Shown one piece after another: positions 13,291-17,280 of a DNA stretch of 64,000 bases. This DNA is from Acidobacteriota bacterium. Its GTDB lineage: Bacteria; Acidobacteriota; Terriglobia; Terriglobales; Acidobacteriaceae. The stretch lies in NCBI GenBank assembly GCA_021791875.1, contig JAJYVU010000001.1, positions 1 to 64,000 of the forward strand, in the 5' to 3' direction. Below the pieces are notes generated by a model. The model was not told the origin of the DNA and did not search any database. It saw only the letters and a program-made list of their open reading frames with translations. The position numbers and the translations under genes are program-made. How positions within the stretch are numbered: position 1 is the first letter of the stretch; each line of letters begins with the position of its first letter.

Positions 13291-13401
13291 AGCATTTTCG
13301 GAATAGATGTAGACCGGCGGTACCATGTACACTCCGCCATTCCAGAGAAGAATGGCGGCTCCGGTCCGCTGTCTGGAGACTACAGTATTTCCGAAAATGC
13401 T
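13291..13401. mobile_element. MITE-like palindromic element, 111 bp
   Basis: Imperfect 22-bp terminal inverted repeats (13291-13312 and 13380-13401; outer 13 bases AGCATTTTCGGAA match exactly) enclose an inner hairpin CCGCCATT / AATGGCGG (13334-13341, 13351-13358). TA dinucleotides lie symmetrically just outside (13288-13289 and 13403-13404), which suits TA-targeting IS630/mariner-type transposition. No coding capacity. Confidence 0.6.
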
Positions 13402-13420
13402 ATACCCCGCCGCGGAGGCC

Positions 13421-13456
13421 ACAAAATAAGAACGGCGCGAAGCATTCGCGCCGTTC
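13421..13456. terminator. Terminator hairpin between convergent rsh and moeZ
   Basis: GAACGGCGCGAA (13430-13441) and TTCGCGCCGTTC (13445-13456) form a perfect 12-bp stem with a 3-base loop. On the minus strand it is followed by UUAUUUUGU (complement of 13421-13429), fitting the end of the moeZ operon. Confidence 0.75.
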
Positions 13457-13508
13457 CCGCTTTTACTGGCCGCTTCTTCCCCAGCCGTTTTACAGCTAAC
13501 CGGCCGCT

Positions 13509-14699
13509 CTAATACTTAGGCACGGAAGGATCAATCTCCCCGGCCCAGGCAAGAATCCCGCCGGCCACATTCGCCACGTTCTTGAAGCCCTGCTGCTGCA
13601 GGAACTCCGCAGCTTTCTGGCTGCGCCCTCCGCTCTTGCAGTGGACGACGATCTCCTGCCCCGCCTGCCGCACCTCCTCCAGCTCGTTCACGCGGCCCGG
13701 CAGTTCTCCCACCGGAATCAGGTAGCCCTGCAGGTTCGCAATCTGGAACTCGTGCGGTTCGCGCACGTCCAGCAGGAAGAACTCCTCGCCCGCATCCATC
13801 TTGCGTTTCAGGTCCTGCACCGTCATCTGCGGAATCCCGTTCTGCACCGCGGCCGGCGGCGCCGGCGGCTGAATTCCGCAGAACTGCTGGTAGTCGATCA
13901 GCTCCGTCACCGTGGGATTCGTCCCGCAAACCGGGCACTCCGGGTTCTTGCGCAGCTTCAGCTCGCGGAACTTCATGTTCAGCGAATCCACCAGCAGCAG
14001 CCGGCCAACCAGAGGCTCACCCTTGCCCAGGATCAGCTTGATCACTTCCGTCGCTTGGATCACGCCGAGCAGCCCCGGCAGAATCCCGAGCACACCGCCC
14101 TCCGCGCACGAGGGCACCAGCCCCGGCGGCGGCGGCTCTGGATACAGGCACCGGTAGCACGGCCCATCCTCGGTGGCGAAGACGCTGGCCTGCCCCTCAA
14201 AGCGGAAGATCGACGCATACGAATTCGGCTTGCCCGTCAGCACGCAGGCGTCGTTCACCAGGTAGCGGGTAGGGAAGTTGTCCGTTCCGTCGGCCACAAT
14301 GTCGTACTGCGAGATGATTTCCAGAGCATTTTTGCTGGTGAGCATCGTCTCGTGCTTCACGATGTTGAGCCTTGGGTTCAACGCCTGAAGCTTCTCCGCC
14401 GCAGAATCAATCTTCGGCCGGCCCACGTCCGGCGTCGAGTGGATGACCTGCCGCTGCAGGTTGCTCTCATCCACTACGTCAAAGTCCACCAGCCCCAGCG
14501 TGCCAATGCCGGCGGCGGCCAGGTACAGCGCCAGGGGCGCACCCAGCCCACCCGTGCCCACGCACAGCACCTTGGCGGCCTTCAGCTTCTGCTGGCCCTC
14601 CATGCCCACTTCCGGCAGGATCAGGTGGCGCGAGTACCGCGCGATGTCTTCATTCGTAAGTTGCGGCAGCGCCGCGGACGATTCAGTGATCGTGGCCAT
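13509..14699 (-). CDS. moeZ: Sulfur-carrier adenylyltransferase/sulfurtransferase (MoeZ type)
   Basis: A 396-residue fusion of an E1-like adenylyltransferase and a rhodanese domain. The N-terminal part has the ATP-binding GTGGLGAPLALYL (48-60), LVDFDVVDESNLQRQ, the DGTDNFPTRYLVND loop and a zinc site from CYRC and CPVC. The C-terminal rhodanese (about 285-396) keeps the active-site loop HCKSGGRS with Cys354. It would adenylate the Gly-Gly end of a ThiS/MoaD-like carrier and thiocarboxylate it. As the last gene of cysM-mec-carrier-moeZ, it most likely charges that carrier for cysteine synthesis, as MoeZ does for CysO in mycobacteria. It has GAGG seven bases before the ATG and is terminated at 13421-13456. 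Confidence 0.92.
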   Translation of the reverse strand: MATITESSAALPQLTNEDIARYSRHLILPEVGMEGQQKLKAAKVLCVGTGGLGAPLALYLAAAGIGTLGLVDFDVVDESNLQRQVIHSTPDVGRPKIDSAAEKLQALNPRLNIVKHETMLTSKNALEIISQYDIVADGTDNFPTRYLVNDACVLTGKPNSYASIFRFEGQASVFATEDGPCYRCLYPEPPPPGLVPSCAEGGVLGILPGLLGVIQATEVIKLILGKGEPLVGRLLLVDSLNMKFRELKLRKNPECPVCGTNPTVTELIDYQQFCGIQPPAPPAAVQNGIPQMTVQDLKRKMDAGEEFFLLDVREPHEFQIANLQGYLIPVGELPGRVNELEEVRQAGQEIVVHCKSGGRSQKAAEFLQQQGFKNVANVAGGILAWAGEIDPSVPKY

Positions 14700-14809
14700 T
14701 CCAGTGCCTCGTGTGCTTTCTCTTGCTATGCTTCAGGGGAGCTTCGGCTTACAGCTATTTTAGGGGATTTCGCCGAAGCCAGTCAGCGGTGAGGGTCCGC
14801 TTCAGGTCG

Positions 14810-15139
14810 CTAGCCGCGACAACAACAGGCGCGTTCGCCTGGATGGCAAGGCTCGCCCGTGCGGTCAGCACCGCCGGCGATGGAAGGAATAATCGAGAGC
14901 GTATCCTGCTCCTGCACGGGGGTCTGTTCGCCCTGCGGAAGATAGCGGACATCCTCGTCGTTCAGGTAAACGTTGACGAACGATCGCAGCTTGCCGTCGC
15001 CCGTATACAGATGCTTCTGGAAGTCCGGGTACTTTGAGGTCAGCGCCGAGAGCGCCTCTTCAATCGTCCTGCCCGAAACCTCCACCGCATCCTGCTTCTC
15101 CGTATAAACGCGAAGCGGTGTCGGGATGAAGATTTTCAT
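14810..15139 (-). CDS. cysO: CysO-like (ThiS/MoaD) sulfur carrier with C-terminal cysteine-rich extension
   Basis: A ubiquitin-like sulfur carrier: beta-grasp region 1-90 with RSFVNVYLNDEDVRYLPQ and DTLSIIPSIAGG, very close in layout to mycobacterial CysO, which normally ends at the Gly-Gly. Here the frame continues 19 residues past Gly89-Gly90 (ADRTGEPCHPGERACCCRG), with four cysteines at 98, 105, 106 and 107. The Gly-Gly must be exposed before MoeZ can act. The JAMM peptidase encoded just upstream is the obvious candidate, by analogy with QbsD/QbsE. A GAAGGA nine bases before the ATG supports the start. A sequencing error or a recent frameshift creating the tail is the main alternative. Confidence 0.88.
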   Translation of the reverse strand: MKIFIPTPLRVYTEKQDAVEVSGRTIEEALSALTSKYPDFQKHLYTGDGKLRSFVNVYLNDEDVRYLPQGEQTPVQEQDTLSIIPSIAGGADRTGEPCHPGERACCCRG

Positions 15140-15271
15140 CGTTTCGGTTCCTTCTTGCGAATTCAGTTGTGTTGTTGCGTGCGTAGAACTAAATTGCTGC
15201 CTTGCTGGTTGCTAACCTGTTGACTAGCTGACCCGCTGGTTGGCTGTCTTCTATGCTATCGGCTCCGTGGC
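15140..15271 (-). other. Spacer within the cysteine operon, rich in GCTG words
   Basis: A 132-base gap between the JAMM gene and the carrier gene. It contains irregularly repeated TGCT/AGCT/GGCT words (15194-15246), reminiscent of the phased AGCT spacers of the ribosomal cluster but spaced by 7-8 or 16 bases. No promoter or terminator is convincing. Confidence 0.35.
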
Positions 15272-15757
15272 TTATGAACCAACCGGAGCCGCCTCGATCT
15301 CCGGGCCTAATCCCGGAATATTTTGCCCCGTCACCTCAATCGGCTCCGGTTCAAATTTTTTGGCTTCCTCGCTCAGCCCGGTCAGGCGGAACGAATTCGT
15401 CTGCCGTGCCGCGCCCTTTTCAATGGCCGTAATCACGTAGCTGCAGCCCAGCCAGTGCGCCTCGGCAAAATCGGTCGGCGACCACTGCGCCGGATGATCC
15501 GGATGCGAGTGGTAAAAGCCCACTATGTCCAGGCCTTTTTCGCGGCCCTGCCGCTGAATGCGGATCAGCTCCTGCGGCGCGATGTGATAGCGGTTATGCG
15601 CTGAATCCGTGCGCGTGTTGCCGGCGCGCACTACTTCCACCACTTCATTCACTGCTGCTTCGACACGGCCCAGCATCACTCCGCAGCACTCATGCGGATA
15701 GGTCTCTTCGCCGTGTTGGCGGATGGCTTCATAAACGGGATCGCTTACTTTCAGCAT
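15272..15757 (-). CDS. mec: JAMM/Mov34 metallopeptidase (Mec+-like)
   Basis: A 161-residue zinc isopeptidase-type protease. The JAMM motif is complete: Glu23 in HECCGVMLG, then His83-Ser84-His85, seven residues, Ser93 and Asp96 (FYHSHPDHPAQWSPTD). Mycobacterial Mec+ releases cysteine from the CysO-cysteine adduct. Here it may also trim the carrier's C-terminal tail. The start at ATG 15757 overlaps the cysM stop by seven bases, showing translational coupling and cysM-mec-carrier-moeZ order. A longer frame upstream is simply antisense shadow inside cysM. Confidence 0.92.
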   Translation of the reverse strand: MLKVSDPVYEAIRQHGEETYPHECCGVMLGRVEAAVNEVVEVVRAGNTRTDSAHNRYHIAPQELIRIQRQGREKGLDIVGFYHSHPDHPAQWSPTDFAEAHWLGCSYVITAIEKGAARQTNSFRLTGLSEEAKKFEPEPIEVTGQNIPGLGPEIEAAPVGS

Positions 15758-16710
15758 GGTTCCTCCCAGAAGCGTTCGCTCAGGTACTTGTCGGCCGAGT
15801 CGCAAAGAATGGTCACAATCACAGCCTCTTCGCCCCTGACGGCCAGTTCTTCGCCTACGCGCAGCGCCGCAGCCACGTTGGCCGCTGACGAAACGCCCAC
15901 CAGCAGCCCTTCGCTGCGGGCCAGCCGCTTGGCCATGGCGTAGGCGGCTTCGGTTTCTATTTCGATGTTCCGGTCGGCGAGTTCGGCATCGTAAATGCCC
16001 GGAACAATCGCCGTCGGCATGTGCTTCAGCCCTTCCAGGCCGTTGAACGGCGAGTCCGGCTGCATCGAAATGCACTCGATCCCCGGCTTCAGCTCGCGCA
16101 GCCGCCGTGACGTGCCCATGAAGGTGCCGCTCGTGCCCAGCCCGGTGATGAAGTGGGTGACGCGCCCGGCGGTCTGCTCCCAGATTTCGTTTGCCGTGGT
16201 GCGGTAGTGAGCCCGCCAGTTGTTCTCGTTGTTGTACTGGTCGGCGTAATAATACTTTTCGGGCTCGTTCGCCGCCAGCTCGCGTGCCCTGCGGATCGCT
16301 CCATCCGAGCCGTCATTCGGATCCGTCCACACGATCTCCGCACCATATGCGGCCAGAATCCGCTTGCGTTCGAGCGATACGTTGGTCGGCATGCACAGCG
16401 TCACAGGGAAGCCCATCGCCGCGCCCAGCATGGCATAGGCGATGCCGGTGTTGCCGCTGGTGGCGTCCAGCAGATGCTTGCCCGGCGGCAGCAGCCCGCG
16501 CTGCCTCGCGTCCTGCACAATGGCCGATGCCGGTCGGTCTTTCACGGATCCGCCGGGGTTGGACCACTCCGCCTTGCCGAGAATATGGATCCCCGGGAGC
16601 TTTTCGGTGATCCGCTCCAGGCGCACCAGGGGCGTGTTGCCAATCCGTTCCAGCAACGGGGTGCCTAAAACCGGCGTTTCAGGCGTCTGCGATTTGGTCA
16701 GCGTAGCCAT
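15751..16710 (-). CDS. cysM: PLP-dependent cysteine synthase (CysM type)
   Basis: Fold-type II PLP enzyme of 319 aa. The PLP lysine is in NPGGSVKDRPA, the phosphate loop is ATSGNTGIAYA, and TGLGTSGTFMG binds the cofactor phosphate. In the CysO pathway this enzyme joins an activated serine (O-phosphoserine in mycobacteria) to the thiocarboxylated carrier rather than to free sulfide. The gene context with mec, carrier and moeZ strongly supports that role over the ordinary sulfide-dependent CysK. It is the first gene of the operon, and its stop overlaps the mec start. Confidence 0.92.
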   Translation of the reverse strand: MATLTKSQTPETPVLGTPLLERIGNTPLVRLERITEKLPGIHILGKAEWSNPGGSVKDRPASAIVQDARQRGLLPPGKHLLDATSGNTGIAYAMLGAAMGFPVTLCMPTNVSLERKRILAAYGAEIVWTDPNDGSDGAIRRARELAANEPEKYYYADQYNNENNWRAHYRTTANEIWEQTAGRVTHFITGLGTSGTFMGTSRRLRELKPGIECISMQPDSPFNGLEGLKHMPTAIVPGIYDAELADRNIEIETEAAYAMAKRLARSEGLLVGVSSAANVAAALRVGEELAVRGEEAVIVTILCDSADKYLSERFWEEPC

Positions 16711-16824
16711 CGGTAAATTGCAGTCCAGGCTTTCTTGTGCGAGATTGAAAACAGCCGGTCGCCTATACCTTCAGTTTAGCTTCCGGCGCTGAAACCCCCA
16801 AATTCGAACAGGTCCGCAGGCATC

Positions 16825-17280
16825 ATGCCCAAGAAAATCAAGCAGATTACCTACAGTGAAGTTCAGGATAGGCTTCGCAGTCTTCAATTTGATGTCGCCC
16901 CGGTCCCGAACGTCGCAAATCAGGTTCAGGTTTCCAAATACGGCTGCGCCGCCATCCTCGGCCCCGGCGGCGACGACGGGGTCTACCAGTTCGTCCATCG
17001 CCCCGGCGTGCTCTTCGGCAAGGAGATCACGCATCTGGTCAACCATGGTTACCAGCAGCACTTTCACACCTCCCGCGGCGATTTTGCGGCCACCGCCGAC
17101 CATCTGCGCAACCTCCATCGTTTCACCGAGGAGCTGAAGGAAGCTGCCGGCGAACCCAGCCTCTACAACGAATCGCTCGGCACCACCAGCGACGACCACC
17201 TCTACGACCGCCTCAAGGGTCGCGATCTGCCTCTGGCCGAGCGCCCCACTCCCGCGTGGAAATTCTCTGCCGGCCACTAA
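16825..17280 (+). CDS. Conserved hypothetical protein, 151 aa
   Basis: I do not recognise a family. The protein is soluble, with no signal peptide or membrane segment, a basic start (MPKKIKQITYSEVQDRLRSLQF) and a central alpha/beta-looking part with YGCAAILGPGGDDGVYQFVHRPG and several His (HLVNHGYQQHFHTSRGDFAATADHLRNLHRF). The C-terminus is polar and charged. It is transcribed divergently from cysM, 114 bases away. Codon use and GC match the neighbours, so it appears to be a genuine gene. Confidence 0.65.
   Translation: MPKKIKQITYSEVQDRLRSLQFDVAPVPNVANQVQVSKYGCAAILGPGGDDGVYQFVHRPGVLFGKEITHLVNHGYQQHFHTSRGDFAATADHLRNLHRFTEELKEAAGEPSLYNESLGTTSDDHLYDRLKGRDLPLAERPTPAWKFSAGH

Follow-up and report, generated by a model that had tools for sequence, protein, structure and literature searches.

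A cysteine-codon run at the end of a CysO-type sulfur carrier gene as a probable built-in polycysteine attenuator in Acidobacteriota

Canestrari et al. reportedly described, in 2020, the polycysteine leader ORFs of mycobacterial cys operons. In the QbsE/QbsD system, the Gly-Gly of the carrier is freed by a cleavage that removes extra sequence. In cysteine synthesis, the CysO-cysteine adduct is hydrolysed by Mec (PMC3227635). Release of fused ThiS/MoaD proteins by JAB proteases was predicted in 2006, in a paper that also tabulates the cysM/JAMM/carrier/moeZ operon type for an acidobacterium, 'Susi' (PMC1779556). In Deinococcus, a MoaD-MoaE fusion is cleaved by a JAMM enzyme (PMC8832034), and MoaX is cleaved after Gly82 by a protease that the account leaves unidentified (PMC4326299). 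As for regulation, a 2005 paper reported no conserved terminator hairpins in the mycobacterial cys leaders and, for lack of hairpins, offered Rho as one weak prediction (PMC1262725). A citing paper, however, speaks of translation attenuation for the mycobacterial system (PMC13236596), a description that counts against Rho rather than for it. In a 2010 survey, almost all predicted attenuators of Acidobacteria are given without an associated function (PMC2965389). Among the matches listed from the open-licence literature, none was seen to describe an acidobacterial cysteine attenuator or a sulfur carrier with a leader fused to it.

The window, that is, the whole stretch of 64,000 nucleotides analysed here, carries cysM, the JAMM (mec) gene, a carrier gene and moeZ in this order on the minus strand, the arrangement of a CysO-type operon. 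The genes and the parts of the carrier are as follows.

15751..16710, minus strand: CysM, a cysteine synthase, encoded next upstream in the cluster (PALP, E 9.8e-70)
15272..15757, minus strand: JAMM metalloprotease, proposed uncapping enzyme (Prok-JAB, E 1.3e-24)
14870..15139, minus strand: carrier core, residues 1-90, ThiS/MoaD fold, ending Gly89-Gly90 (Pfam ThiS)
14813..14869, minus strand: tail ADRTGEPCHPGERACCCRG, 19 residues, proposed polycysteine leader fused to the carrier (translation, homologues)
14819..14827, minus strand: Cys codon run TGT TGT TGT, proposed cysteine-tRNA sensor (codon bias, frame)
14810..14812, minus strand: carrier stop TAG, two codons past the Cys run (translation)
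13509..14699, minus strand: MoeZ-type E1-rhodanese, gene proposed as controlled (ThiF and Rhodanese domains, CKSGGRS motif)

The carrier gene (15139-14810, minus strand) encodes 109 residues with the C-terminus ...SIIPSIAGG-ADRTGEPCHPGERACCCRG. Pfam ThiS matches residues 5-90 (E 5.2e-12), as expected of a ThiS/MoaD-like beta-grasp protein, and the codon of Gly90 ends at 14870. The best-matching solved chains, 4n6e_B and 3dwg_C (E 7.6e-14 for the latter, which we take to be CysO), each terminate at the equivalent Gly-Gly. A CysO-type carrier should have Gly-Gly as its encoded C-terminus; in the window carrier 19 more residues follow, and translation bore out the four Cys among them that had been read from the sequence alone. 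Three of the four are consecutive, encoded by TGT TGT TGT, and pattern searches placed the run at 14817-14827 and 14816-14827. The run ends 6 nt upstream of the stop in the context TGT TGT TGT CGC GGC TAG, and moeZ, a cysteine-pathway gene, starts 110 nt downstream of that stop. The JAMM protein retains its catalytic motif HSHPDHPAQWSPTD and E23 intact (nearest solved chain, 2kcq_A). The locus thus combines Gly-Gly, an extension and a JAMM partner with an intact motif, by sequence the makeup of a JAMM-processed precursor. CysM scored 355.5 bits against TIGR01138 (cysM), below the cut-off of 394.2, and the three Rfam matches in 13400-17000 all lie far under their gathering scores. A second carrier-like gene of the same genome (L002, G000:C40:259545-259829; 28-30% identity) encodes a product ending in SIAGGCE, with a Cys after Gly-Gly.

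For comparison, 271 loci were reduced to 221 distinct carriers by counting identical core DNA once. Judged by record name or kinship, nearly all are from Acidobacteriota; 196 are unfused and 25 are fused to MoeZ. The sample draws on the best matches listed from 285 genomes and is weighted to close relatives. Two rows were dropped (L002, the paralogue, and L323, which lacks an identifiable Gly-Gly). Fourteen homologues with open frames of 485-531 aa were left out, so that fusions are undercounted. An extra set comprises 13 uncut loci, besides L367 and L369, which are cut by contig ends. Among 49 distinct loci with at least 7 kb of sequence, the JAMM gene was found in 47, moeZ in 48 and cysM in 46.

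At least one residue lies beyond Gly-Gly in 194 of the 196 unfused homologues. Relatives ending at Gly-Gly, which would speak against a genuine cap, are limited to two of the 196 (L031, L232) and one of the 13 extra loci (L370). A sequencing error or frameshift near the tail was ruled out by the in-frame tails CCRTGDRAFGACCCCRD and SGRMADCACSCCCCR in both congeners found, and in-frame tails with a Cys run occur in 62 of the 196 homologues. The sequence-only reading had held that a capped Gly-Gly must be processed before use. This is probably correct, given the 194 caps, the fusions to MoeZ and the intact JAMM motif; the cap as a rule, together with a JAMM gene in nearly all of the longer loci, supports its idea of cap removal. 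It is thus plausible that the carrier is uncapped after Gly90, probably by the adjacent JAMM protease, an idea that the literature had anticipated in part. As for the fusions themselves, carrier and MoeZ form one polypeptide through Gly-Gly in at least 25 of the 221 loci (e.g. L010, L020, L076, L099), two of these 25 being cut by a contig end. Nine of the 23 named fusions belong by record name to Bryobacterales, Bryobacteraceae or Solibacteraceae. Such proteins are either split by a protease, or the carrier is tethered to its own activating enzyme. The 'Susi' of the 2006 table is presumably Solibacter usitatus.

The tails of 94 unfused loci contain 108 Cys among 768 residues and the cores of 119 loci none among 10,611, a difference beyond chance. 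Conservation of the tail among acidobacterial carriers, raised from the window sequence, held in nearly all homologues for the cap and in part for the Cys: the in-frame run, of CCCR, CCR and CICS types, is confined to the 62 loci, and tail length, spacing and non-Cys residues vary widely across homologues. These 62 loci fall into 30 clusters at 80% core identity. The run ends at most three residues from the C-terminus in 58 of them, and exactly one residue stands behind it in 46. Neither a run nor a separate leader (see below) was found in 125 of the 196 homologues, indicating that the cysteine system is optional. The codons of the run are distinctive. In the first set of loci, TGT and TGC number 58 and 10 in the run, compared with 28 and 311 in cysM, the JAMM gene and moeZ of the same loci; the larger set gave 137 and 33, and one representative per cluster 73 and 16. 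Across the 62 run-bearing tails, 148 Cys codons end in T and 43 in C, whereas the other C/T-ending codons prefer C (96 T, 236 C), so the TGT usage does not reflect a general T-ending bias. The pattern TGYTGYTGYCGN, with 103 matches compared with 70 for a control pattern, is too common to be useful alone, and nine of the 12 run-like sites examined lie inside or opposite larger ORFs.

In some relatives the run is encoded separately. A short Cys-rich ORF starts 0-14 nt past the carrier stop in nine of the 196 loci, for example MILGWTNSRMPRYSACCCCCPSCCCR (L023) and MDRFPMNATCHTRRCCCCCR (L019), and in these nine the carrier stops one or two residues beyond Gly-Gly. Two of the 13 extra loci (L359, L360) also have a separate polycysteine ORF, giving 11 relatives altogether; in the window the leader is the end of the carrier and not a dedicated short ORF. 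A strict pattern scan found 3/76 on the forward and 0/76 on the reverse strand, with a Markov control expectation of 0.46, and a looser scan found 9/107 versus 5/107, which is weak by count alone. The quality of the matches differs: four or more consecutive Cys occur in eight of the nine forward ORFs versus none of the five reverse-strand control matches, with TGT/TGC counts of 47/17 and 5/16, respectively. Genus g15 contains both forms, a separate leader in G016 (L359) and an in-frame one in G127 (L284) with the internal ATG still visible, which suggests that in this genus the leader became joined to the carrier when the stop was lost. A tree of the 90 core residues, itself weak, implies 37 changes among four tail classes; presence of the run changes 26 times and fusion 10 times, and five of 25 differing pairs stand on supported branches.

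Similar leaders precede cysD. In the window genome (4.17 Mb), TGTTGTTGTCGC occurs twice, in the carrier tail and in a Cys-rich leader before cysD, the short ORF MKPVLNQMCIFCCCRACPAGCGHRFACC, which ends 111 nt upstream of cysD. The congeners carry MKPVLNMCMCCCHACPAGCEHRFACCR and an ORF ending RCCCCHACCACRGFVRACMCCCC before cysD, but these lack the exact 12-mer. The congener copies that were inspected (L172, L197, L174, L199; one in G001 was left out) lie inside or opposite larger ORFs, so that the 12-mer is not special in the congeners. Among 61 genomes, 25 have cysD-like genes, at 27 loci. A Cys-rich short ORF lies within 350 nt before the gene at 14 of the 27 loci on the forward strand and at none on the reverse. 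The 14 ORFs use TGT 73 and TGC 20 times, compared with 2 and 104 in the matched cysD bodies; without L217, which is a carrier copy, the 13 remaining loci give 70 and 19. This region (L326, the same as L217, in genome G020) holds a second carrier copy with the tail AGVCRAMCCCAGAHTRPRRYR directly before cysD, with no moeZ found behind it, indicating that the tail belongs with whichever cysteine gene follows and not specifically with moeZ. Polycysteine ORFs upstream of cysM (7/59 forward versus 4/59 reverse) were not significantly enriched, and upstream of the JAMM gene we found 0/128 forward and 2/128 reverse. In L083, L085 and L088, short ORFs ending NLGCCCVFLAISG lie about 70 nt before cysM and may be cysM leaders. 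Around base 1500 of L180 (genome G006), a short ORF MAICCCRCAPVGE is followed by a terminator-like hairpin and then by a gene that we take to be peroxiredoxin-like; this could possibly be a cysteine attenuator of an antioxidant gene.

The capped frame, the in-frame run, its codon bias, the separate-leader forms and the cysD leaders are all read directly from the sequences. Selection at the codon level, separate leader ORFs and stand-alone leaders before cysD fit an attenuator that reads cysteine codons better than a tail that binds a ligand. We consider it quite likely, on these genomic grounds, that the tail is the leader peptide of a cysteine attenuator, carried in frame at the C-terminus of a CysO-type carrier and sensing cysteine for moeZ. 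With Cys-tRNA in short supply, ribosomes nearing the end of the carrier would stall at the UGU codons that lie right before the stop. The stall would change what happens to the C-rich 110 nt leading to moeZ, most probably by keeping Rho off them, and the activating enzyme MoeZ would be made. When cysteine is plentiful, ribosomes would clear the run and depart, and moeZ expression would drop. The tail would then be cut after Gly90, probably by the JAMM protein, leaving the carrier open to adenylation by MoeZ. In tna, a stalled ribosome covers a Rho site; a scheme of the tna kind, with a ribosome stalled on the run shielding such a site, is our best guess for the mechanism, held tentatively and at well under an even chance.

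The sequence-only reading had suggested possible metal or redox control through the Cys-rich tail, which would thereby gate uncapping by the JAMM enzyme. The in-frame Cys-rich tail, the adjoining JAMM gene and the retention of the Cys run in the congeners agree with this. A role at the protein level, however, leaves the preference for TGT unexplained, as it does the 11 loci with separate leader ORFs and the Cys-rich ORFs before cysD, and the length, spacing and other residues of the tail vary widely. The proposal was thus not supported, and we regard such a switch as improbable; the tail appears better explained by a built-in polycysteine attenuator.

If the run acts as an attenuator, the sequence downstream of the stop becomes of interest. 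Three features of the window lie there.

14730..14809, minus strand: C-rich, G-poor stretch (C 35%, G 24%), a candidate for Rho loading (base composition)
14806..14820, minus strand: small hairpin GTCGC-ggcta-GCGAC around the stop codon (fold analysis, predicted fold)
14741..14779, minus strand: inverted repeat GCTTCGGC/GCCGAAGC between the carrier stop and moeZ (sequence, predicted fold)

Rho loads on C-rich, G-poor RNA. In loci with a CC run, the 80 nt past the stop contain 35% C and 21% G, a skew of +0.249 (n=26), compared with -0.014 in run-less loci (n=46; p 8e-8, kinship ignored). The deviation has the same direction in Cys-x-Cys loci (+0.106, n=24) and in loci with a separate leader (+0.113, n=9), and the skew past cysD leaders is +0.169 (n=14) versus -0.011 (n=13; p 0.008, kinship ignored). 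This C-rich, G-poor composition past the stop suggests Rho. The gap before moeZ is also longer in loci with a run or a separate leader (median 134.5 nt versus 72 nt for the rest). Among measured gaps below 500 nt, none of 66 such loci has a gap shorter than 25 nt, versus 30 of 109 others; a tree-based comparison of independent pairs, five of them supported, gave no clear link between run and gap length.

As for RNA structure, we found no intrinsic terminator between the run and moeZ in the window, and the carrier-moeZ gap of the window folds no better than its shuffles (z -0.78). The small hairpin at the stop codon has counterparts in the congeners (GCGACT/AGTCGC and GTCGC/GCGAC), and congener L003 has an inverted repeat, GCCTTAC/GTAAGGC, at a similar place in the gap. 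The stop region folds better than its shuffles in Cys-x-Cys loci (mean z -2.0, n=25) and slightly better in CC loci (-0.92, n=39), but not in the remaining loci (-0.08, n=123); at the carrier stop of separate-leader loci the value is +0.85 (n=9). Pairing of the run with the moeZ start was rejected as a general model: self and cross-locus energies are the same (CC loci, -10.96 versus -10.98 kcal/mol, n=34; f5, -10.74 versus -10.64, n=22), with no sign of co-evolution. An increase in the accessibility of the moeZ start by a stalled ribosome was likewise rejected, no change being predicted (p 0.6 and 0.3, kinship ignored). Two further observations concern the gap. A promoter-like pair, CTGACT/TAAAAT, lies at 14757-14786 on the minus strand of the window (9/12 matches, 0.1 expected), with TAAAAT in L003 and TACAAT in L004 at a similar place, so that part of moeZ transcription could bypass the attenuator. 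In L085, the carrier stop is followed immediately by an insert of some 115 nt that the inverted repeat AGCATTTCTCCTG/CAGGAGAAATGCT flanks, and the gap measures 216 nt there, compared with 100 nt in L083 and L088.

In a second alternative, the run is a nucleic-acid signal that is not read as codons, such as a site bound by a protein or the U-rich portion of a terminator. A terminator-like match, CAGGCG-aacg-CGCCTG followed by TTGTTGT, lies where the carrier gene ends and itself ends in the run. Moreover, the 25 Cys-x-Cys loci share a conserved hairpin that begins at the last base of the stop, with 97.1% of cells paired; five cells are changed on both sides, and as the stem varies little, the covariation is modest. 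The reading frame speaks against a signal of this kind. All 57 copies of TGTTGT in the 196 tails are in frame for Cys, as are 77 of 78 copies of TGYTGY. The Cys-x-Cys loci, which are mostly of family f5 and were chosen for this pattern, have Ile, Val, Thr or Ala between the two Cys. Unrelated short ORFs also contain runs of this kind. We therefore think a signal independent of translation quite unlikely.

The tail might instead serve only as a protease handle, an encoded Gly-Gly-Cys mimicking the adduct of CysO and cysteine on which Mec-type JAMM enzymes act. A Cys directly follows Gly-Gly in 25 of the 132 non-empty run-less tails (e.g. L005, L044, L047, L071), where 3.35% is expected (p 2e-12, kinship ignored), and its codons are mostly the ordinary TGC (19, with 6 TGT). 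The adduct itself is a substrate of Mec (PMC3227635), and it is this likeness that makes the encoded Gly-Gly-Cys a possible handle. The window tail, however, begins with Ala and lacks Gly-Gly-Cys, and a handle explains neither the position of the run near the stop nor its codons, which makes this a very unlikely account of the tail. Gly-Gly-Cys looks like a protein-level feature distinct from the Cys run, and in other species it may be a handle beside the attenuator. Inert drift, in which loss of the stop is harmless given the JAMM protease, agrees with the highly variable length and sequence of the tail and with the 125 homologues lacking both run and separate leader, and is the least credible of all against the codon bias, the frame, the near-stop position and the recurrence in 30 clusters.

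Returning to the cysteine attenuator, a broader evolutionary reading stands at about even chances in our judgement. A dedicated polycysteine attenuator between carrier and moeZ would have been fused repeatedly, in frame, to the carrier, so that one segment acts as both cysteine sensor and removable pro-peptide, and one JAMM protease would serve both leader removal and cysteine release. Fusion of a leader to a functional carrier would be tolerated because the protease of the operon removes the leader after Gly-Gly. The analysis provides Acidobacteriota with a concrete candidate for a cysteine-sensing system, with moeZ and cysD as targets. It also indicates that a leader peptide may persist as the tail of a working protein, where annotators and biochemists could otherwise read it as a metal-binding motif. 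Two questions are made testable, namely the maturation of CysO-type carriers by JAMM proteases before activation and the merging of a regulatory ORF with a gene.

Compared with known systems, the locus resembles the mycobacterial polycysteine leaders in that an ORF preceding genes of cysteine synthesis has consecutive Cys codons close to its stop. In the accounts of those leaders, the run lies in a dedicated short ORF upstream of the operon, whereas here the leader forms the end of a pathway protein encoded within the operon, and the phylum is Acidobacteriota. The mycobacterial mechanism is termed translation attenuation (PMC13236596), whereas sequestration of the start lacks computational support here. 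The uORFC-8-2 motif before cysS in Rhodobacterales is alike in its tandem Cys codons in a short ORF and in the ribosome-mediated attenuation proposed for it; as described, it differs from the window tail in its intrinsic terminator, the dominance of UGC, its stand-alone leader and its target gene (PMC8632094). CysO of the mycobacterial CysO/CysM/Mec/MoeZ pathway has the same carrier fold, Gly-Gly and operon partners (PMC3227635), but its solved chain, 3dwg_C, stops at Gly-Gly, whereas the window carrier is encoded with a tail. In MoaD-MoaE with DRJAMM (PMC8832034) and in MoaX (PMC4326299), as here, Gly-Gly is buried behind removable extra sequence; in both, that sequence is a protein domain, for which neither account describes a codon-level role, whereas the tail of the window carrier has, near its end, a run of cysteine codons that probably acts as it is translated.
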